This document shows positions 4,029 to 36,174 of a DNA stretch of 41,189 bases, piece after piece; the first letter of the stretch is position 1; each line of letters opens with the position of its first letter. The position numbers and the translations under genes were made by a program. The notes beneath the pieces were generated by a model. That model was not told where the DNA came from, searched no databases, and was given only the letters and a program-made list of their open reading frames with translations. Source of the stretch: a virus; IMG/VR virus record IMGVR_UViG_3300042522_000515, positions 1 through 41,189 of that record; one strand, written 5' to 3'.

Positions 4029-4569
4029 ACTCGAAATTCTTCCTACAAATCCATTTGTGTTTGAAATCCTTGCTCTTGCTTCAAAACAAAGGTCAAAAGC
4101 AAAGAAAGTAGAAGTACTCAAAACATACGAACACGATTCATTAAAAGCAATTTTTATTTGGAATTTTGATGAAACCGTAGTATCTGTTTTACCAGAAGGT
4201 GATATTCCTTACTCTAATCTTAAGGAAGATTTTAAAGTAAGTGGAAATCTTTCCGATAGAGTAAAACAGGAAATTGAAACTATGGAACACTACTCCACTA
4301 CGTCGATGGGAACAATTCAAGATAGAAGTGGTAAAACAACTCTTCGTAAAGAATTTACGATGCTTTATAATTTTGTCCGAGGTGGTAACGATAGTTTAAG
4401 TTCTATTCGTAGAGAAATGATGTTTATTAATATGCTTGAAGGACTTCATCCTCTGGAAGCAGAAATTGTTTGTCTTGTAAAAGACAAAAAACTTGAAAGT
4501 AAATATAAAATTAATAAGGATATTGTTTCTGAAGCATATCCTGATATTCAATGGGGTGGAAGGTCCTAA
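3994..4569 (+). CDS. Conserved-looking cyanophage protein of unknown function, 191 aa
   Basis: I start at ATG 3994 (MTTTTTKKTETELEILPTNP); the upstream in-frame Met at 3934 would overlap the preceding gene by nearly 100 nt. The protein has a Thr-rich leader, then a mixed helical body (NPFVFEILALASKQRSKAKK, EHDSLKAIFIWNFDETVVSV, GLHPLEAEIVCLVKDKKLE). I recall this layout as a core hypothetical of T4-like cyanophages (possibly the family named DUF6433), but could not check. The helical, charged C-terminal third could bind a polymerase or DNA. No catalytic motif is seen. Confidence 0.7.
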   Translation: MTTTTTKKTETELEILPTNPFVFEILALASKQRSKAKKVEVLKTYEHDSLKAIFIWNFDETVVSVLPEGDIPYSNLKEDFKVSGNLSDRVKQEIETMEHYSTTSMGTIQDRSGKTTLRKEFTMLYNFVRGGNDSLSSIRREMMFINMLEGLHPLEAEIVCLVKDKKLESKYKINKDIVSEAYPDIQWGGRS

Positions 4570-8342: not shown

Positions 8343-8929
8343 CTCCTTTTGATGTATATAAAACTTACTTAGCATTCAAAAATCATTTTACAAAAGAAAA
8401 TTACGATTACTTTAAGTATTGTGGAAAGTCCAGAGCATCTCTGGACTCTTTTCATAAGAGAAAGGATAGATATTTCTTTGAACGAACTTCCAGACAGAAA
8501 AATGATGATGAAATCAAAGCATATTTTGTAGCAAATTTTGCTGAATGTAATGACACACAATCTTTATGGATTGGTGAAATTATCGAAAATGGAGAACAAA
8601 TTTATACAAATTGGTTAAAGAAATCCCAAAGTCTTTTTTACTTATTCAAAACAGAAGCAGAAGTCTTTATTCATAAAGATAGTTTTGAAAAACTGTTTGA
8701 GATAAAAAATAATCAACATCCAGAAATTCTCAAAAAGTATTTTCAAAAGGCAATCAGTTTGGAAACGATGGTGATATTGGATATGATATTGGGTTATGTA
8801 AAAAAGTTTGATAAGAAATTAACAGACCCAGTGTGGGAAACCGTCAGTCTAAGAATTCGAAAATATCAACCATTCCTAAATATTGATATAGCAAAGTATA
8901 AAGAAGTCCTCAAGGAGATTGTTTTATGA
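8339..8929 (+). CDS. 59: Replicative helicase loader gp59
   Basis: GTG start at 8339, overlapping the gp33 stop. The 196-aa protein matches T4 gp59 from memory in order: DVYKTYLAFKNHF, RKDRYFFERTS (T4 RRDKYFF), SLWIGEI (T4 AWIGDI), ISLETMVILDMILGYVKKFD (T4 ISFETFILLDSFL), and DPVWETVSLRIRKYQPFLNI (T4 NLVWNNYSIKLKAYRKILNI). gp59 recognises forks and loads gp41 helicase onto gp32-coated ssDNA, and gp32 lies two genes downstream. Slightly shorter than T4 gp59 (217 aa). Confidence 0.9.
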   Translation: MTPFDVYKTYLAFKNHFTKENYDYFKYCGKSRASLDSFHKRKDRYFFERTSRQKNDDEIKAYFVANFAECNDTQSLWIGEIIENGEQIYTNWLKKSQSLFYLFKTEAEVFIHKDSFEKLFEIKNNQHPEILKKYFQKAISLETMVILDMILGYVKKFDKKLTDPVWETVSLRIRKYQPFLNIDIAKYKEVLKEIVL

Positions 8930-9258
8930 GCAGATTTTTTGATTCAGAACAGGTCAGAGAATCTTTATTTGAACTTGATGAACTTCAACATAAACTTTTC
9001 AATGAATTATTGGAACTTCCTTTTTCTGGTTCGGATAAAAAAAGGGAACATCTAGAAACAATGAAGAATTTTTTAGAAAAACAAAAAGTCTTTATTTTTA
9101 GATTATCTCTATCCAATGATCCAGAAGCAATAGAAATGAAGAATCGAATTCTTGATTCCGCTAAAATGTTTGGATTGGAATCGGGAGACAATATCAATAC
9201 GTTCTTTGCGAAAATGGAAGAGTCGATCGAAAACCTCGAAAAGACCCTTGACGACTGA
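8926..9258 (+). CDS. DUF1825-like small helical protein
   Basis: A 110-aa all-helical protein beginning MSRFFDSEQVRESLFELDEL, with a central LEKQKVFIFRLSLSNDPEA and a C-terminal Met/Glu-rich helix. It resembles the cyanobacterial DUF1825 family (FFES...; KIFMKRFELSED...), which cyanophages also carry. Role unknown; a host-derived origin is possible. Its start overlaps the gp59 stop, and the -35 box of the gp32 promoter lies in its last codons. Confidence 0.75.
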   Translation: MSRFFDSEQVRESLFELDELQHKLFNELLELPFSGSDKKREHLETMKNFLEKQKVFIFRLSLSNDPEAIEMKNRILDSAKMFGLESGDNINTFFAKMEESIENLEKTLDD

Positions 9259-9276
9259 CCTCATACCTGCTATACT
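9248..9276 (+). promoter_or_regulatory. Strong sigma70-type promoter of gp32
   Basis: TTGACG (9248-9253), a 17-nt spacer ending in TGC, then TATACT (9271-9276): near-consensus -35, optimal spacing and an extended -10. It points at gene 32 at 9321 and should be read by host RNA polymerase early in infection. Confidence 0.8.
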
Positions 9277-9277
9277 T

Positions 9278-9318
9278 AATACGTACAATACTTCCAATAC
9301 TACTAATACGGAGAATAC
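9278..9318 (+). repeat. Five AATAC boxes at exact 9-nt spacing in the gp32 leader
   Basis: AATAC occurs at 9278, 9287, 9296, 9305 and 9314, each 9 nt apart, filling the whole stretch from the -10 box to the start codon. The spacer of the last repeat (GGAG, 9310-9313) is the ribosome-binding site. G is nearly absent elsewhere, so the leader should be unstructured. T4 gp32 represses its own translation by cooperative binding to its unstructured leader; this array is a candidate operator. Confidence 0.65.
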
Positions 9319-9320
9319 GA

Positions 9321-10223
9321 ATGTCTTTTGCTGATCTTAAAAAGCAATCTAAGATGGGTTCTTTGACCGAGAAACTCATCAAACAAGTTGAGAAACTCAA
9401 CGATGGTGGTTCCAAAGATGATGATCGTTTTTGGAAACCTGTAATGGATAAAGGTGGAACTGGTTCTGCTGTAATCCGTTTTCTTCCTGCTCCCGAAGGT
9501 TGTGATTTGCCTTGGGCTCAGGTTTGGTCTCACGCATTTCAAGGTCCTGGTGGTTGGTTGATTGATAATTGCCTCACCACTTTGGGTCAAAACTGTCCTG
9601 TATGTGAAAAGAACCGTGTTCTTTGGAACTCTGGTTCTGATCGTGATAAAGAAGAAGCACGTAAACAAAAACGTAAACTTTCTTATTTCGCAAACATTTA
9701 TGTTGTAAAAGATCCTGCGAATCCTGCAAATGAAGGACGAGTGTTCCTTTATAAGTTTGGTAAGAAAATCTTTGATAAGATTATGGCTTCGATGCAACCT
9801 GAGTTTGATGATGAAGAACCAATTAATCCCTTTGATTTTTGGAAGGGTGCTAACTTCAAACTGAAACTAGTGAAGAAAGATGGTTATTGGAACTATGATA
9901 AATCTGAATTCGCACCATCTTCTGCTCTTCTTGATGACGATGATGAACTGGAAACAATCTATAAGTCACTCAACAACTTGAATGACTTTGTTGCTCCAGG
10001 TGAGTTCAAGTCTTATGAAGATTTGAAGAAACGTCTTGATTATACTCTTGGTCTCAAAGGAACTCCAAAGTTCCAAGACCCCGAGACGATTGATGAAGAA
10101 GAAGAAGTTGAAGTTTCACGTCCTGCGAAAGAAACCACTTCAGTTCGTTCTTCTGTTTCTACTGATGACGAGGAGGATGGGGATGATACACTTGCATATT
10201 TTGCGCGTTTAGCAGCAGACTGA
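9321..10223 (+). CDS. 32: Single-stranded DNA-binding protein gp32
   Basis: A 300-aa protein, about the length of T4 gp32. Visible parts: an N-terminal basic cooperativity region (residues 1-20, MSFADLKKQSKMGSLTEKLI); a zinc site with H71, C84 and C92-P-V-C95 inside the OB-fold core; aromatic DNA-contact residues (FWKP, WSHAF, PGGWLIDN); and a highly acidic C-terminal tail (EEEEVEVS..., STDDEEDGDD) that recruits partner proteins such as gp59. It coats ssDNA in replication, recombination and repair. It has its own strong promoter and a repeat-bearing leader, and is followed by a strong terminator. Confidence 0.95.
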   Translation: MSFADLKKQSKMGSLTEKLIKQVEKLNDGGSKDDDRFWKPVMDKGGTGSAVIRFLPAPEGCDLPWAQVWSHAFQGPGGWLIDNCLTTLGQNCPVCEKNRVLWNSGSDRDKEEARKQKRKLSYFANIYVVKDPANPANEGRVFLYKFGKKIFDKIMASMQPEFDDEEPINPFDFWKGANFKLKLVKKDGYWNYDKSEFAPSSALLDDDDELETIYKSLNNLNDFVAPGEFKSYEDLKKRLDYTLGLKGTPKFQDPETIDEEEEVEVSRPAKETTSVRSSVSTDDEEDGDDTLAYFARLAAD

Positions 10224-10250: not shown

Positions 10251-10281
10251 TACCCCCGAAAAAAATCGGGGGTATTTTTTT
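10251..10281 (+). terminator. Rho-independent terminator of gp32
   Basis: A 9-bp stem TACCCCCGA (10251-10259)/TCGGGGGTA (10266-10274) with an A-rich loop and a T run to 10281. It separates gp32 from the convergent minus-strand late operon. On the minus strand the hairpin lacks a T run, so it seems directional. Confidence 0.92.
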
Positions 10282-10292
10282 GTCTGTAGGGT

Positions 10293-10589
10293 TCACACCC
10301 CAGTAATTTTTGGATTATAACCACGTTTAGTATTTTGATTTATATATTGTGAAGATTCCGCATACTTCATAATGTTCTTCATATCACCTATAAAGACTGC
10401 TAGGTATTCTGGTTTTAAAATTAATATTTTTCTTTTCTTTTCATTTTCCAAAACTTCATATTCATAATTACTTACTTCTTTAATAGATGAAGATGATGCT
10501 TTATTTTTATTTGTATTAGTAATAGAAATTGCTTCAACGTTTCTTGATACTTTTATTTTTACACCATTTATGGGAGGTTGAAGAGACAT
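10293..10589 (-). CDS. Hypothetical 98-aa protein, last gene of the minus-strand baseplate operon
   Basis: MSLQPPINGVKIKVSRNVEA... followed by a Ser/Lys/Asn-rich segment and a body with EYEVLENEKKRKILILKPEY and ends in a basic tail (NTKRGYNPKITGV). No recognised domain. It lies 17 nt downstream of gp53 and is presumably co-transcribed with it, which suggests a virion or assembly role. The gap to the gp32 terminator is tiny, so there is no separate terminator for this operon. Confidence 0.65.
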   Translation of the reverse strand: MSLQPPINGVKIKVSRNVEAISITNTNKNKASSSSIKEVSNYEYEVLENEKKRKILILKPEYLAVFIGDMKNIMKYAESSQYINQNTKRGYNPKITGV

Positions 10590-10606: not shown

Positions 10607-11440
10607 TTAGAATTGTTGTTTGAATTTAAATACTGGGACAATCGCACCATCTACTTCTTCGCCTACAATTTCGTATAATAATGGATTGAGGACTATATCA
10701 TTTTCAAATATAATATCAAGAACTTGAATGGCAGTATTTTCAGTTCTTCCTTTTACTGTGGTTTCTCCTCCCCAACTGGCAGGCCAAGTATCTAAACTAT
10801 TTGTGATACTAATATCAATTTTATTTTGTCTTCCACTAATTTTTAATGAAGATAAATTATATCCAATGTCTTTTATAATTGCCTGTGTGGTTTCTGTCGT
10901 ACCATTATAAACAGGAAGATATTGATTTAAATTGATTGTAATAACATCTGTATCTTCTTTTGGAAATTCACCTAAATTATAACTATTAAATTGTCCTGGA
11001 CCAGTTGCAACTGATATTTGTTTTCCTGAGTCAACTTGATAACCACCAGGAACTACAACACGTTCATATTCGTCTCTAAATTCAACAGTTTCATAGTGAT
11101 GAGGTTTTGCAAGTTCTTCATCACTTCCATACTTATCTATAAGATACTTATAAAAACTATTATTATCTAACGGCCAATTTTGATTGATATTTGTGATATT
11201 ATTTGTGATTAAAATTACCCAATCAAGGTCTGCGTTGTCGTAAACTTTTGCAGCAACTTGGTCTGGTCTTTCATTATCAATAATTTGATAATATTCAAAA
11301 GCAGTTATAGCATTCGCAATATCTTCTCTTAATTTTGCTCTTTTGAATATATTTTTAGTTACAACATAATCGTCATTAAATGACTGATTAGGAAAATTCG
11401 CAATATACTGGAAATTTGGAAGTTCTCTAAAATACGGCAT
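10607..11440 (-). CDS. 53: Baseplate wedge subunit gp53
   Basis: A 277-aa protein whose first 120 residues carry the gp53 family pattern: MPYFRELPNFQYIANFPNQS, TKNIFKRAKLREDI, FEYYQIIDNERPDQVAAKVY, LDWVILITNNITN, WPLDNNSFYKYLIDKYG. In T4, gp53 fastens wedges together and triggers hub-wedge joining. The C-terminal half is beta-rich and longer than in T4 gp53 (about 196 aa), as is usual for cyanophages. It follows the homing endonuclease and has its own CTAAATAC box at 11462-11469, keeping it expressed despite the insertion. Confidence 0.9.
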   Translation of the reverse strand: MPYFRELPNFQYIANFPNQSFNDDYVVTKNIFKRAKLREDIANAITAFEYYQIIDNERPDQVAAKVYDNADLDWVILITNNITNINQNWPLDNNSFYKYLIDKYGSDEELAKPHHYETVEFRDEYERVVVPGGYQVDSGKQISVATGPGQFNSYNLGEFPKEDTDVITINLNQYLPVYNGTTETTQAIIKDIGYNLSSLKISGRQNKIDISITNSLDTWPASWGGETTVKGRTENTAIQVLDIIFENDIVLNPLLYEIVGEEVDGAIVPVFKFKQQF

Positions 11441-11493: not shown

Positions 11494-12327
11494 TTAGGAG
11501 GCAATAGTACCATATTTTTTTATATGATAGTAAGATTTGCTAGTAATTTGTATAGCATTCAATATGCAGTCATAAATCGTTCCATCATAATATATCTTTT
11601 TTGCTGCTGGACTTTTTCCTCCAGTAATATTTGGATTTTTAATTCCTTTATTCCAAGGAACTTTTCCTTGTGTTGCTTCACTTATTTTTCTTTTAGTTTC
11701 TTCTGAATGTTTATGTCCAGGAATTCCAGTTCTTGCTTTAGCACGGATAATGACGGAGTTCTTGCTTTTTTCGGTAATAGTTTTAGATTTCCCCTTATTA
11801 GATTCTGAAATTTTTTTCTTGTGGTCTATAGTTAATTTTTTTCCTTTTGTTGCTTTACTAATTTTTTTCTTTGTTTCTTCGGAAAGAGTTTTACCATAAT
11901 TGTAATGATTTTTACCTTTTCCTTTAGAATATAATTTACCTTTCCTTTTAGAATATGATTTACCTTCCATTTTAGGATATGATTTACCTTTCCTTGCTTC
12001 ACTTATTTTTCTTTTGTGTTCTTCAGATAATGTTGTTCCGTATACAGAAAAACCAGTAGAAGTTTGATATGACTTATTAGCAAAGTGGGGATTTTCTACA
12101 ACCTTATAATATTCCTGTAAAATAATCTCATCAACATATGCTTCTTCTCTTGTAGCATAATCACTTTTGAGTATTATTTTTTGCGTTGGTTTGAATGTTT
12201 TATCTTTGAATGAACCGAAGTAGTTTATATCTTCTTTTGGTAAGCATTTACAACTTCTACTACCAAAATATCCTCTACCATATTCCTCATAGGAATAATA
12301 GACATAGTGATACTCTGTGAGTTCCAT
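11494..12327 (-). CDS. Free-standing GIY-YIG-type homing endonuclease with NUMOD3 repeats
   Basis: A 277-aa protein. Residues 6-40 (YHYVYYSYEEYGRGYFGSRS, then CKCLPKEDINYFGSF) look like the divergent GIY-YIG catalytic domain of phage homing nucleases (YVY...GYFGSR, with a later conserved EEAYVDE). Residues 95-235 hold several NUMOD3 DNA-binding motifs (LSEEHKRKISEARKGK, LSEETKKKISKATKGK, HSEETKRKISEATQGK, then VPWNKG). The end (AKKIYYDGTIYDCILNAIQI) resembles a NUMOD1/IENR1 helix-turn-helix. Four 8-residue GKxYSK-like units sit between NUMOD3 copies. It is wedged between gp48 and gp53 with its own terminator and late promoter upstream, typical of a mobile endonuclease that homes into phages lacking it. 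Confidence 0.88.
   Translation of the reverse strand: MELTEYHYVYYSYEEYGRGYFGSRSCKCLPKEDINYFGSFKDKTFKPTQKIILKSDYATREEAYVDEIILQEYYKVVENPHFANKSYQTSTGFSVYGTTLSEEHKRKISEARKGKSYPKMEGKSYSKRKGKLYSKGKGKNHYNYGKTLSEETKKKISKATKGKKLTIDHKKKISESNKGKSKTITEKSKNSVIIRAKARTGIPGHKHSEETKRKISEATQGKVPWNKGIKNPNITGGKSPAAKKIYYDGTIYDCILNAIQITSKSYYHIKKYGTIAS
11911..11988 (-). repeat. 24-bp tandem repeats inside the homing endonuclease gene
   Basis: The plus-strand hexamer TTTACC recurs at 11911, 11935, 11959 and 11983, exactly 24 bp apart, with similar intervening bases. It encodes four 8-residue units of the type (E/K)GK(S/L)YSK(R/G). In-frame units of this kind can expand or contract by slippage, changing the linker between DNA-binding motifs. 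Confidence 0.75.
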
Positions 12328-31413: not shown

Positions 31414-33096
31414 ATGGCAACTCCAGGATTTCTCAGCAAGAGAGTTAAAAAGAAATCACAAACTGGTCTTACAACAGACCGTTATGAATTTTTGGGTTTA
31501 GACCAAGCAGAACCAGATTTGGGAGACCCATTAGTTGGTATTTCTTCTATTGGTGCAAATCCTGCTCCAATTGCTGGAACTCAATATGTTTTAATTTCTA
31601 ATAGTGAAAATACTGGGAAAAGATATTGGGTTGCTTCTTCTCAATTGTCTGGTGGTGGATTAATTCCTGGTTCTTTTACAGTATTTAATAACAGTATTCA
31701 GGTTGGTGCCGCAAATAGTTTTAATAAGTTTAATTTTGTTGGTACTGGGGTAACAGTAGATTTTGTTGGTGCAGCAGTAACGCAACAAACTGGTATTGCA
31801 ACAGTTAGAATTACCGTAACGGATTTAGTTGGACCAGGAAATGTAAATTCAATATCATATAAGGCAAGTAATGGACTATTAGCAGGGGCATCTGACTTTG
31901 TATATTTGAGTGGAAATATTGGTATAGGTTCCACACAACCAACAGTGCCACTAGATGTAGTAGGTAATGCAAGATTTACTGGTATTATAACTGCCTCTAG
32001 TTTTACTGGTAATCTTACTGGTACAGCAACTACAGCAACCACTGCAAATAACGTAAGTTCTACTATTAATATCAATACTTCTGGTATTATAACTGCCTCT
32101 AGTTTTACTGGTAATCTTGCTGGTACAGCAACCACTGCAACTACTGCTCTTGGTTTCTCTACAACTGCTAGTATCAATACTTCAGGTATTATAACTGCCT
32201 CTAGTTTTACTGGTAATCTTACTGGTACAGCAACTACTGCCAATAACGTAAGTTCTACAATCAATATTAATACTTCAGGTATTATAACTGCCTCCACATT
32301 TTATGGAAATTTAGTAGGTAATATTTCAACAACAGGTCAATCATTTAATACTATATCTGTCATAGGACTTTCTACATTTGCAAATGGTCCAATACTAGTA
32401 GGGAGAGCAACTACAACAGGAACTGCAACACAAGCACTTCAAGTGGAGAGTGGTGGATACTTCAATGGTTCTGTTGGCATTGGAACTACAAATCCGTCAT
32501 CAAAACTTCACGTTGTTGGTGATGGTAACTTTACTGGTACTGTTACTGCTACTTCATTTTCTGGTTCTGGTTCCAATCTAACTGATTTGTTATCCAATAC
32601 AGTATCAACTTCTTCTACAACTGCTCCTCAATATATTGGGTTTGTAAGTGCCACTAGTGGCACTATAACATCTAATTTAGTAAGTAGCACATTAACCTAT
32701 ATTCCATCAAGTGGAAGTTTGGGTATTGGAACCACAAATCCAAGAACACCACTTCAAGTTGAGACTTATGGAGTAAAAACTGGAGTTGGAACATTTGATG
32801 CGTCTGTTGGGGTTTCCACAACAATAGATAGTTTTTCTGTCTCTTCTACTGACTTTAAGGTTGCTGAATATACAGTTCATATTGGTTTTGGTTCTTATAT
32901 TCAGGCACAGAAGGTTCTCGTAACACAAGACCAATCTACTGCATATTCTTCTGAGTATGCAGTAGTTTATAATAATTCATTGATTGTTTCTATTGGAGCA
33001 ACAATTAGTGGAGGAAATTGCATTCTTCAAGCAACTCCACAAACTGATATTAGTGGATTGACGACTTATAGATTTGCAAGAAATACCTTACTCTAA
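31414..33096 (+). CDS. Repeat-rich tail fibre protein, 560 aa
   Basis: The N-terminal half (MATPGFLSKRVKKKSQTGLT) is a beta domain with 'GTGVTVDFVGAAVT'. A 'GNIGIGSTQPTVPLDVVGNA' unit opens a series of GIITASSFTGNLTGTATT / NNVSSTININTS repeats (residues 185-295, DNA 31981-32290). A second GIGTTNPSSKLHVVGDG unit follows, then a C-terminal beta domain ending TTYRFARNTLL. These 'GIGTTNP' units are typical of trimeric fibres. No S74 chaperone is present here; the neighbouring 1003-aa gene has one. Repeats are nearly identical at DNA level with those of the next gene. Confidence 0.82.
   Translation: MATPGFLSKRVKKKSQTGLTTDRYEFLGLDQAEPDLGDPLVGISSIGANPAPIAGTQYVLISNSENTGKRYWVASSQLSGGGLIPGSFTVFNNSIQVGAANSFNKFNFVGTGVTVDFVGAAVTQQTGIATVRITVTDLVGPGNVNSISYKASNGLLAGASDFVYLSGNIGIGSTQPTVPLDVVGNARFTGIITASSFTGNLTGTATTATTANNVSSTININTSGIITASSFTGNLAGTATTATTALGFSTTASINTSGIITASSFTGNLTGTATTANNVSSTININTSGIITASTFYGNLVGNISTTGQSFNTISVIGLSTFANGPILVGRATTTGTATQALQVESGGYFNGSVGIGTTNPSSKLHVVGDGNFTGTVTATSFSGSGSNLTDLLSNTVSTSSTTAPQYIGFVSATSGTITSNLVSSTLTYIPSSGSLGIGTTNPRTPLQVETYGVKTGVGTFDASVGVSTTIDSFSVSSTDFKVAEYTVHIGFGSYIQAQKVLVTQDQSTAYSSEYAVVYNNSLIVSIGATISGGNCILQATPQTDISGLTTYRFARNTLL
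31981..32290 (+). repeat. Tandem fibre repeats (GGTATTATAACTGC units) in the 560-aa gene
   Basis: Units beginning GGTATTATAACTGCCTC start at 31981, 32083, 32185 and 32278. Most continue with TAGTTTTACTGGTAATCTT and AATAACGTAAGTTCTAC blocks (32047, 32242). Spacing is 102, 102 and 93 bp, all multiples of three. The third-codon bases are conserved too, which points to recent duplication or gene conversion. Confidence 0.85.
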
Positions 33097-33162: not shown

Positions 33163-36100
33163 ATGGCAGATAAAAACTTTGGAGTAAAGGGGATAAACTT
33201 TGTTGGTGACCCTGGTACGCCAACAATTTCTATAGCATCCTCTACCATCACTTATGCGGGAAATTTAAACCTTAACGCACCTACTGTTGCTATCAGTACA
33301 GATGTTTCAATCGGTGGAAAAGTTGTATCAAATTTAGTTGTATCGGATACTTATTCAGTTGGTATAGGAACCACAGTTCTGACTGAAAAATTAAATGTAA
33401 GTGGAAATGCAAATATTTCGGGTGTTGTAAGTGCTACTGGTTTTGTTGGTTCTGGTGTTAGTTTAACTGGATTATTAACAAACCAATCATCTGCAATTGA
33501 TACTGGTGAATATCAGTATCTTTTAGTTACTCCTCAAACTTCTGGAACTATTTCCAGTGTTTCTTCATCATATGATTATATTGCTTTCAATCCTGCTGCA
33601 AAATATCTAGGAATTGGAACAAATACACCAATAGCAGGATTGGATGTAAGTGGTACTGGTAGATTTATAGGTACTGTTACTGCTCCAACTTTTCAAGGAA
33701 CTGCTACAACTGCTACAAACCTTGCAGATGCGGCAAATATAACTACTGGTATTGTTAGTACTGCTAGATTATCTGGAACTTATGATATTAGTATCTCTGG
33801 AAATGTTGCAACAGCAACCACTGCTTCTGGTTTAACGACAACTGCTAGTGTAAACACAACTGGTATTATAACTGCTTCTAGTTTTGTAGGAAATCTTACT
33901 GGAACAGCAACCACTGCAAATAACGTAAGTTCTACAATCAATATTAATACTTCAGGTATTATAACTGCCTCTAGTTTTACTGGTAATCTTACTGGTGTGG
34001 CATCATCTGCAATACAATTACAAACCACAAGATATTTTAGTGTCAGTGGTGATGTTTCTACTGGTTCTTCGGTTGCATTTGATGGAACTCAGAATGTTGG
34101 ATTGGCAGTAACTTTAGCACTTTCTGGTGTTACTTCTGCAACTTATGGTTCAAGTACTTCTATTCCATCTATTTCAGTTAATGATAAAGGAATTATTACT
34201 GGGGTAACAACTAGTGGAATTACTGTTGGAAATGGAACATTAGACCTCAAAACATCTGGAACAGGATTATCTGGTATTGCGACCTTTACTGCAAATCAAG
34301 CAACTGGAACTGCAGTTACGTTTACAGTAACATCTGATGCAACAAGTGCCAACACAGCAGGAGCAATTGTTGCTCGTGATGCAAGTGGAAACTTTAGAGC
34401 AGGAATTATTACTGCTACTACTTTCTCTGGAACAGCAACCACTGCAAATAACGTAAGTTCTACAATCAATATTAATACTTCGGGTATTATAACTGCTACT
34501 ACTTTTTCTACTGGTATTTCAACTCAAAATATTGGATTTACTACAGGCATTATTAGTGGTCCAAATACAATTTTTATCAATCCTTATCAAATTGGTGTAT
34601 CCACAGGAACTGTAAGAATTCTCGGAAATCTTACAGTTGATGGCACCACAGTCACAACCACACAAGCAACCATACAATCAAGTGCTACAACGATTGGAGT
34701 TGCAGTTTCAGAAACAAGTAATATTGTTCTTGATGGTGCTGGAATTACGATTGGTTCGACATCGATTCAAAAAACTTTACTATGGAATTATGGTTCAAGT
34801 TCATTAAAATCAAGTGAAAACTTAAATGTTGCTTTAGGAAAAGTTTATCAAATTAATGATAACCCAATTTTAAGTTCAACTGAACTTGCATCTAGTGTTG
34901 TTAATGCTCCTGGCATAACAACTGTTGGAACATTAAAACAATTAGTTGTTTCGGGCAATACATCAACAGATGCAGTCAAAATCACTCAAATTGGTTCTGG
35001 AAATGCTCTGGTAGTTGAAGATGAAACTAGTCCAGATGGAACTGCTTTTATTGTGAGTGCTAATGGTTCTATTGGTATTGGAACCACAATTCCATCATAT
35101 AAACTTACAATTACCAATAATGCTCTTCCAACTAGTGGTCTAACACATGCGATTGCTGATTTTACTGGCAGTGTAGATGGTTATACTCAACTTAATATAA
35201 GAAACTCTCTTGCTGCCGCAAATGCTTCTTCTGATTTGATTGCTACGGCAGATACTGGGTCCGATACAACAAACTTTATCGACTTAGGTATTAATAATAG
35301 TACTTTCTCTTCTGGTTCTTGGACGGTCAATGGAGCATTAGATGGATACTTATATGCTTCTGATGGTAGTTTATCGATTGGTATTGCCACTAGTGATACA
35401 GCAAAATATATTTCATTCTTTGCTGGTGGATTACTGGCAGAAAACGAACAAGTAAGAATCAATCAAAGTGGTGTTGGGATAGGAACCACAAATCCAACAG
35501 CATCTCTTGAAGTTTTTGGTGATTCAAGAGTTTCAGGTATTATAACTGCTTCTAGTTTTGTAGGAAGTCTTACTGGAACAGCAACCACTGCAAATAACGT
35601 AAGTTCTACTATTAATATTAATACTTCAGGTATTATAACTGCTACTACTTTTGTAGGAAATCTTACTGGAACAGCAACTACTGCAACTACTGCAACTACT
35701 GCAACTACTGCCAATAACGTAAGTTCTACTATTAATATTAATACTTCTGGTATTATAACTGCTTCTAGTTTTACTGGAAACTTAACAGGTACAGCAACTA
35801 CAGCAACTACTGCTAATAATGTAAGTTCTACTATTAATATTAATACTTCTGGTATTATAACTGCTACTGATTTTAATTCAACCTCAGATATTAACTTAAA
35901 AACCAATATTCATCAAATTGAAGATTCACTTTCAAAAGTGATTCAAATTCGTGGTGTAACCTTTGATTGGAAAGAAACCAATCGGTCCTCTGCTGGTGTT
36001 ATCGCACAAGAAGTTGAAAAAGTATTACCACAACTTGTAAATGGTGAAGATATCAAAACAGTCAATTATAATGGTGTGATTGGTGCTTTAGTTGAGGCAG

Positions 36101-36174
36101 TTAAGGAACTGAAAGCAGAAAATGATATTTTAAAAGAAAGATTGGACGAAGTTTATAAAAAAGTTTTTGGTTGA
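33163..36174 (+). CDS. Tail fibre with S74 intramolecular chaperone, 1003 aa
   Basis: Starts MADKNFGVKGINFVGDPGTP, then many fibre repeats: 'GIGTT' units, GIITASSFxGNLTGTATT, NNVSSTININTS, and DAANITTGIVSTARLSGTYD. The last 96 residues are a Peptidase_S74 chaperone: S908-D-I-N-L-K913 contains the Ser/Lys dyad used for self-cleavage, followed by IRGVTFDWKETNRSSAGVIA QEVEKVLPQLV and a C-terminal heptad helix (LVEAVKELKAENDILKERLD). S74 domains trimerise and fold the fibre, then release themselves. It has its own late-like box and is followed by a terminator, so it can be expressed alone. Confidence 0.9.
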   Translation: MADKNFGVKGINFVGDPGTPTISIASSTITYAGNLNLNAPTVAISTDVSIGGKVVSNLVVSDTYSVGIGTTVLTEKLNVSGNANISGVVSATGFVGSGVSLTGLLTNQSSAIDTGEYQYLLVTPQTSGTISSVSSSYDYIAFNPAAKYLGIGTNTPIAGLDVSGTGRFIGTVTAPTFQGTATTATNLADAANITTGIVSTARLSGTYDISISGNVATATTASGLTTTASVNTTGIITASSFVGNLTGTATTANNVSSTININTSGIITASSFTGNLTGVASSAIQLQTTRYFSVSGDVSTGSSVAFDGTQNVGLAVTLALSGVTSATYGSSTSIPSISVNDKGIITGVTTSGITVGNGTLDLKTSGTGLSGIATFTANQATGTAVTFTVTSDATSANTAGAIVARDASGNFRAGIITATTFSGTATTANNVSSTININTSGIITATTFSTGISTQNIGFTTGIISGPNTIFINPYQIGVSTGTVRILGNLTVDGTTVTTTQATIQSSATTIGVAVSETSNIVLDGAGITIGSTSIQKTLLWNYGSSSLKSSENLNVALGKVYQINDNPILSSTELASSVVNAPGITTVGTLKQLVVSGNTSTDAVKITQIGSGNALVVEDETSPDGTAFIVSANGSIGIGTTIPSYKLTITNNALPTSGLTHAIADFTGSVDGYTQLNIRNSLAAANASSDLIATADTGSDTTNFIDLGINNSTFSSGSWTVNGALDGYLYASDGSLSIGIATSDTAKYISFFAGGLLAENEQVRINQSGVGIGTTNPTASLEVFGDSRVSGIITASSFVGSLTGTATTANNVSSTININTSGIITATTFVGNLTGTATTATTATTATTANNVSSTININTSGIITASSFTGNLTGTATTATTANNVSSTININTSGIITATDFNSTSDINLKTNIHQIEDSLSKVIQIRGVTFDWKETNRSSAGVIAQEVEKVLPQLVNGEDIKTVNYNGVIGALVEAVKELKAENDILKERLDEVYKKVFG
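33862..35875 (+). repeat. Dispersed and tandem fibre repeats in the 1003-aa gene
   Basis: Blocks containing AATAACGTAAGTTCTAC occur at 33919, 34447, 35592 and 35712, with a variant near 35817, each followed by an (ATTAATATTAATACTTC) and GGTATTATAACTGC stretch. They match the repeats of the upstream gene almost base for base. Within them GCAACTACT is repeated four times in tandem at 35674-35709, encoding (Ala-Thr-Thr)4. Confidence 0.85.

Follow-up and report, generated by a model that had tools for sequence, protein, structure and literature searches.

In phage T4, gp32 acts as a repressor of its own mRNA by way of UUAAA repeats lying over the ribosome site (PMC535899, PMC3014915), in an operator which also comprises a 5' pseudoknot acting jointly with them (PMC535899); the site size of the protein is given either as 7 nt (PMC10484735) or as 8 ± 1 (PMC12893549). 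The gene 32 leader of RB49 resembles the one described here in being a T4-like gp32 leader, and is reported to be without the pseudoknot (PMC535899); it has no 9-nt periodic array, and the two papers differ as to whether any UUAA units are left in it (PMC535899, PMC3014915). The present leader belongs to a virus of cyanophage type and lies in a window of 41,189 nucleotides, corresponding to positions 1 to 41,189 of IMG/VR virus record IMGVR_UViG_3300042522_000515. It precedes the same gene as the T4, T2 and RB69 operators and shares with them short A+U-rich repeats over an unstructured ribosome site, cooperative filling by gp32 being proposed for both; many marine relatives also feature, like T4, a 5' structure, in the form of a hairpin before the array. 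It differs from them in the core, AAUAC (AAUCC or AAUCU in relatives) instead of UUAAA, in the period, 9-10 nt instead of 5, and in the 5' structure, present in T4 and not predicted in the window; gp32 is, moreover, here a putative ligand. The TRAP-type operators of bacterial trp leader RNA, made of evenly spaced triplets, one per protein binding pocket, may be compared by analogy only: they too consist of short motifs set at even intervals in a leader RNA devoid of structure, but the protein is unrelated and ring-shaped, the period shorter, and the system tryptophan-dependent.

The ORF following the array is a member of the gp32 protein family (PF08804, DNA-binding core), matched with an E value of 2.5e-44 and 152 bits, against a cut-off of 26.8. 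It also matches phrog_224 (E 4e-117) and the gp32 chains 8gme, 2a1k and 1gpc from PDB (E about 1e-44 to 1e-46). Its 5' neighbours are a gp33-like late-transcription coactivator, gp59 and a DUF1825-like protein, in an order which recurs upstream of gp32 in marine cyanophage records; on the 3' side, the terminator reported in Table 1 is the predicted end of the gp32 transcript.

Elsewhere in the window, the baseplate wedge gene 53 looks split into two ORFs on the minus strand (10293-10589 and 10607-11440), mutually unlike: the 277-aa ORF, which has an extra 130 aa, resembles positions 2-143 of phrog_232, the 98-aa ORF positions 130-212. A NUMOD3 homing-endonuclease-like gene (11494-12327, minus strand), containing a 24-nt tandem repeat (11911-11993), lies between the gp53 and tail-tube-cap genes, and tandem repeats of 102-120 nt (31979-32240 and 35581-35875) are found in two long ORFs (31414-33096 and 33163-36174), perhaps encoding tail-fibre-like proteins.

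Table 1. Location of the repeated units, signals and gene at the gp32 locus of the window
Feature	Position	Strand	Remarks
Sigma-70-like promoter TTGACG-17-TATACT, extended -10 (TG)	9248..9276	+	predicted; 10/12 match
AATAC copy 1	9278..9282	+	read from sequence; abuts -10 box
AATAC copy 2	9287..9291	+	read from sequence; conserved core
AATAC copy 3	9296..9300	+	read from sequence; conserved core
AATAC copy 4	9305..9309	+	read from sequence
GGAG Shine-Dalgarno	9310..9313	+	linker between copies 4 and 5
AATAC copy 5	9314..9318	+	between Shine-Dalgarno and ATG
gp32 gene	9321..10223	+	ATG at 9321; Pfam and phrog matches
Intrinsic terminator	10251..10274	+	3' of gp32; 9-bp stem, 6 G-C pairs, T run

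The five AATAC copies, read directly, begin exactly where the earlier note had placed them, and both the near-consensus promoter it had located before the array and the GGAG it had assigned to the last period were found again. The copies are separated by the linkers GTAC, TTCC, TACT and GGAG, the last one being followed by GA and the start codon; because the linkers differ, the TRF score of the array is a modest 40. Five AATAC-N4-AATAC pairs are present in the window, four of them in the gp32 leader, where 0.18 are expected, and none of 100 shuffles contains five or more. Over the last 52 nt of the leader, self-match at lag 9 is 0.63, against 0.29 in shuffled sequences, a value reached by none of 2000 dinucleotide shuffles, in agreement with the view that the regularity goes beyond AT-richness; when the maximum over lags 3-24 is considered, 2 of the 2000 shuffles reach the value of the window.

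The array had also been said to fill the whole leader from promoter to ATG. This holds for its location between the two, but copy 1 is probably absent from the RNA made from this promoter: it would lie at or before +1, as promoter-proximal DNA outside the leader. Transcription is likely to start about 7 nt past the -10 box (~9283), so that the promoter transcript would carry four copies; RNA reading through from upstream genes would carry five. The promoter is kept, in position and near-identity, by close relatives. At L207, L208, L209 and many other IMG/VR loci, sigma-70-like and TAAATA elements overlap about 45-75 nt before gp32, and a hairpin follows.

The possibility, raised by the earlier note, that close relatives with gp32 lack the repeat was checked on the best 80 gp32 homologues in IMG/VR, which yielded 33 distinct leaders: 29 keep at least three exact in-register AATAC copies, while in the other four the copies are degenerate or re-spaced, an outcome which does not refute the proposal. 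Among near relatives units are gained and lost (six copies in L020, three in L042) and linkers vary freely; conservation is highest in units 4 and 5. When 169 distinct leaders were selected by gp32 protein similarity alone, 131 were found to contain at least three ATAC, ATCC or ATCT units spaced by 8-11 nt, compared to 0.12% of shuffled sequences; the leader set extends to gp32 proteins near 50% identity with the queries. Strong autocorrelation was observed, for 83 diverse leaders, at lags 9 and 18 only (z 17.1 and 8.0), while control sequences, taken upstream at the same loci, show no peak at lag 9 (z=1.7). The lag-9 signal persists (z=8.4) after removal of the GGAG unit, and simple ribosome-site conservation was rejected on this basis; leaders without AATACGGAG have peaks at lags 10 and 9 (z 8.3 and 5.1). 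The mean frequency of the major letter is 0.85 in cores and 0.50 in linkers, on rows partly chosen by register, the autocorrelation and the 169-leader count being the unbiased measures. Taken from comparison of sequences, these data support selection on the array, with cores kept, linkers free and unit number variable.

The expectation of a conserved 9-nt periodicity is borne out in most relatives, but the period is 10 in others; similarly, the AATAC core is kept in many, while in some lineages it is replaced by AATCC or AATCT. These latter cores are found in S-SKS1, P-SSM2 and many other phages, often with a period of 10 nt. Units tend to agree within a leader: 302 of 365 pairs are concordant, against a shuffled mean of 200, and 59 out of 75 leaders are pure for one core dialect. 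Dialects are clustered on the gp32 tree, with about nine switches, at least four of them on well-supported branches, and a phylogeny-aware pair test of concerted core change has three supported pairs only; concerted evolution of the core letters across units is thus no more than suggested. In L357, L359 and L356, all of the AATCT dialect, a longer duplicated unit (e.g. ACAAGCCAAATCT) replaces the 9-nt array.

The position of the array points to the process in which it may take part. Measured back from the ATG in 75 diverse leaders, the start of the last unit is found at 7.7 ± 2.5 nt and the -10 box at 52 ± 11 nt; the units being fixed to the start codon and not to the -10 box, the array belongs to translation initiation rather than to the promoter. 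The leaders of relatives are weakly folded (median MFE -0.8 kcal/mol over 42 nt). That of the window, with a folding z of +0.8, is an unstructured stretch with a repeated A+U-rich element, which covers the ribosome-binding site of the gp32 mRNA. A hairpin in this leader was rejected, as none is predicted by folding; nor is a stable structure predicted 5' of the array, by a program which does not predict pseudoknots as such. A known RNA family was likewise rejected, nothing having reached the gathering score in an Rfam search of 8900-9600.

Many marine relatives, on the other hand, feature a hairpin before the array, a few bases past a late-promoter-like TAAATA element. Its arms differ among phages, yet pair (TGCTAC/GTAGCA, TGTTAC/GTAACA, GCTATCCT/AGGGTAGT), and it is on this that its weight rests, since the count of hairpins, 64 out of 87, is only moderately in excess of the 41.7 expected from a simple shuffle. 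On average, the region upstream of the array folds better than shuffles (mean z -1.2, s.e. 0.17). A two-part layout, composed of a 5' structure and repeats, may therefore be present in relatives and reduced in the clade of the window.

As to gene specificity, in P-SSM4 (413 ORFs) and in a freshwater relative (171 kb, 447 ORFs) the gp32 leader alone contains a chain of three or more units. Uniqueness is claimed for these two genomes only; in P-SSM2, a genome-wide ORF ranking missed the gp32 leader, the likely cause being the choice of another start codon. When IMG/VR was scanned for AATAC units, three in phase, the matches listed comprised leaders directly before gp32, the rest being mostly coding repeats, such as those of collagen-like genes. 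Exact IMG/VR matches to AATACGGAGAATAC lie directly upstream of gp32 in 94 of 120 cases; among the remaining ones are coding sequence and a single UvsX-like gene, named by eye. In L281 a single AATACGGAGAATAC (4078-4091) directly precedes a UvsX/RecA-like recombinase ORF, the one non-gp32 replication gene noticed with this sequence.

The window leader lacks the UUAAA/UAAA unit of T4, its unit being AATAC and lag 5 not being among the top lags, and no structured 5' nucleation element, which in T4 is a pseudoknot, is predicted in it; it is therefore classed as a variant of the T4 operator, not as a member. None of the enteric leaders checked has the 9-nt period, that of T4 showing lag 5, while in a KVP40-like Vibrio phage leader ATAC units recur at lags 5 and 10. 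The suggestion that the period is near the footprint of one monomer holds as an approximation, 9 being close, but not equal, to the 7 nt or 8 ± 1 given for T4 (PMC10484735, PMC12893549).

The array is proposed to be the translational operator of gene 32, with a probability of about 0.7. Its anatomy, that is its site in the leader, signs of selection, anchoring to the ATG, inclusion of the ribosome-binding site, weak folding and specificity for gp32, supports, as far as sequence goes, a cooperative gp32 operator. The mRNA would expose nearly unfolded AAUAC units, every 9 nt, from the ribosome-binding site to the start codon; when gp32 is in excess over single-stranded DNA, monomers would bind adjacent units, roughly one each, and the cooperative row thus formed would hide GGAG and AUG from the ribosome, stopping gp32 synthesis. 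As the ligand is not identified by conservation alone, gp32 binding, with one monomer per unit and repression as its outcome, is what we infer. Several points weigh on the other side: units 4 and 5 double as part of the ribosome site; the window has no predicted counterpart to the 5' pseudoknot of T4, and the enteric leaders checked do not have its period; and T4 gp32 shows little preference for sequence when binding single strands, which leaves no obvious need for a specific 5-letter core. No published binding or expression data were found for any cyanophage gp32, nor did the open-access literature searched yield an account of the repeat.

An unfolded A-rich leader could also load ribosomes, e.g. 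through protein S1, acting as a translation enhancer or ribosome standby site with no feedback. The weak structure of the leader, the array ending at the ribosome site, and the abundance of gp32 in T4 are all compatible with such a role; yet it needs neither a fixed 9-nt period, nor a 5-letter core, nor a coherent change to AATCC or AATCT, and no other leader in the two relatives has the array, although other genes are highly expressed. This explanation is considered rather unlikely. Still less probable is a site for another RNA-binding protein, either of the host or the phage translational repressor RegA, rather than gp32. The identity of the ligand is indeed a deduction, and unstructured A+U-rich RNA in the vicinity of start codons is a target of RegA (PMC3014915); but RegA acts on about 30 T4 mRNAs through variable sites (PMC3014915), while in the genomes scanned the array precedes no gene other than gp32.

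Little room is left for a DNA-level element, such as a repeated transcription-factor or replication-related site at the gp32 promoter, which the contact between copy 1 and the -10 box in the window might suggest: the array keeps its distance to the ATG while that to the promoter varies (sd 2.5 vs 11-17 nt), stops at the start codon, and has a period which does not match the DNA helical repeat. A promoter element was rejected because the position of the array follows the ATG. Least credible of all is an ordinary origin, with the context of the ribosome-binding site retained by descent along with a functionless AT-rich tandem duplication, or else a coded Asn-Thr repeat. AATACGGAGAATAC is widespread, the period of 9 is divisible by 3, and the array is read through by an out-of-frame ORF; but the lag-9 signal does not depend on the GGAG unit, linkers diverge while cores stay, and, of 183 spacings in diverse relatives, 58 measure 8, 10 or 11 nt, which breaks the frame and led to rejection of the coded repeat.

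The operator reading may, tentatively, be carried further, to a view somewhat less probable than its opposite. In cyanobacterial T4-like phages and their deep-branching relatives, operator spacing would read the gp32 filament, each 9-nt unit docking one monomer via its 5-letter core; the number of units would tune the threshold of repression, and the dialects (AAUAC, AAUCC, AAUCU) would coevolve with gp32. The conserved operator itself would bring translational autocontrol by the SSB to a large phage group, where the searched literature shows none, and the variation it displays in nature, in core, period, number of units and 5' hairpin, constitutes a ready-made test series. If the extended view is true, an SSB that is sequence-independent in name singles out its own messenger by a phased sequence, and not by a pseudoknot.
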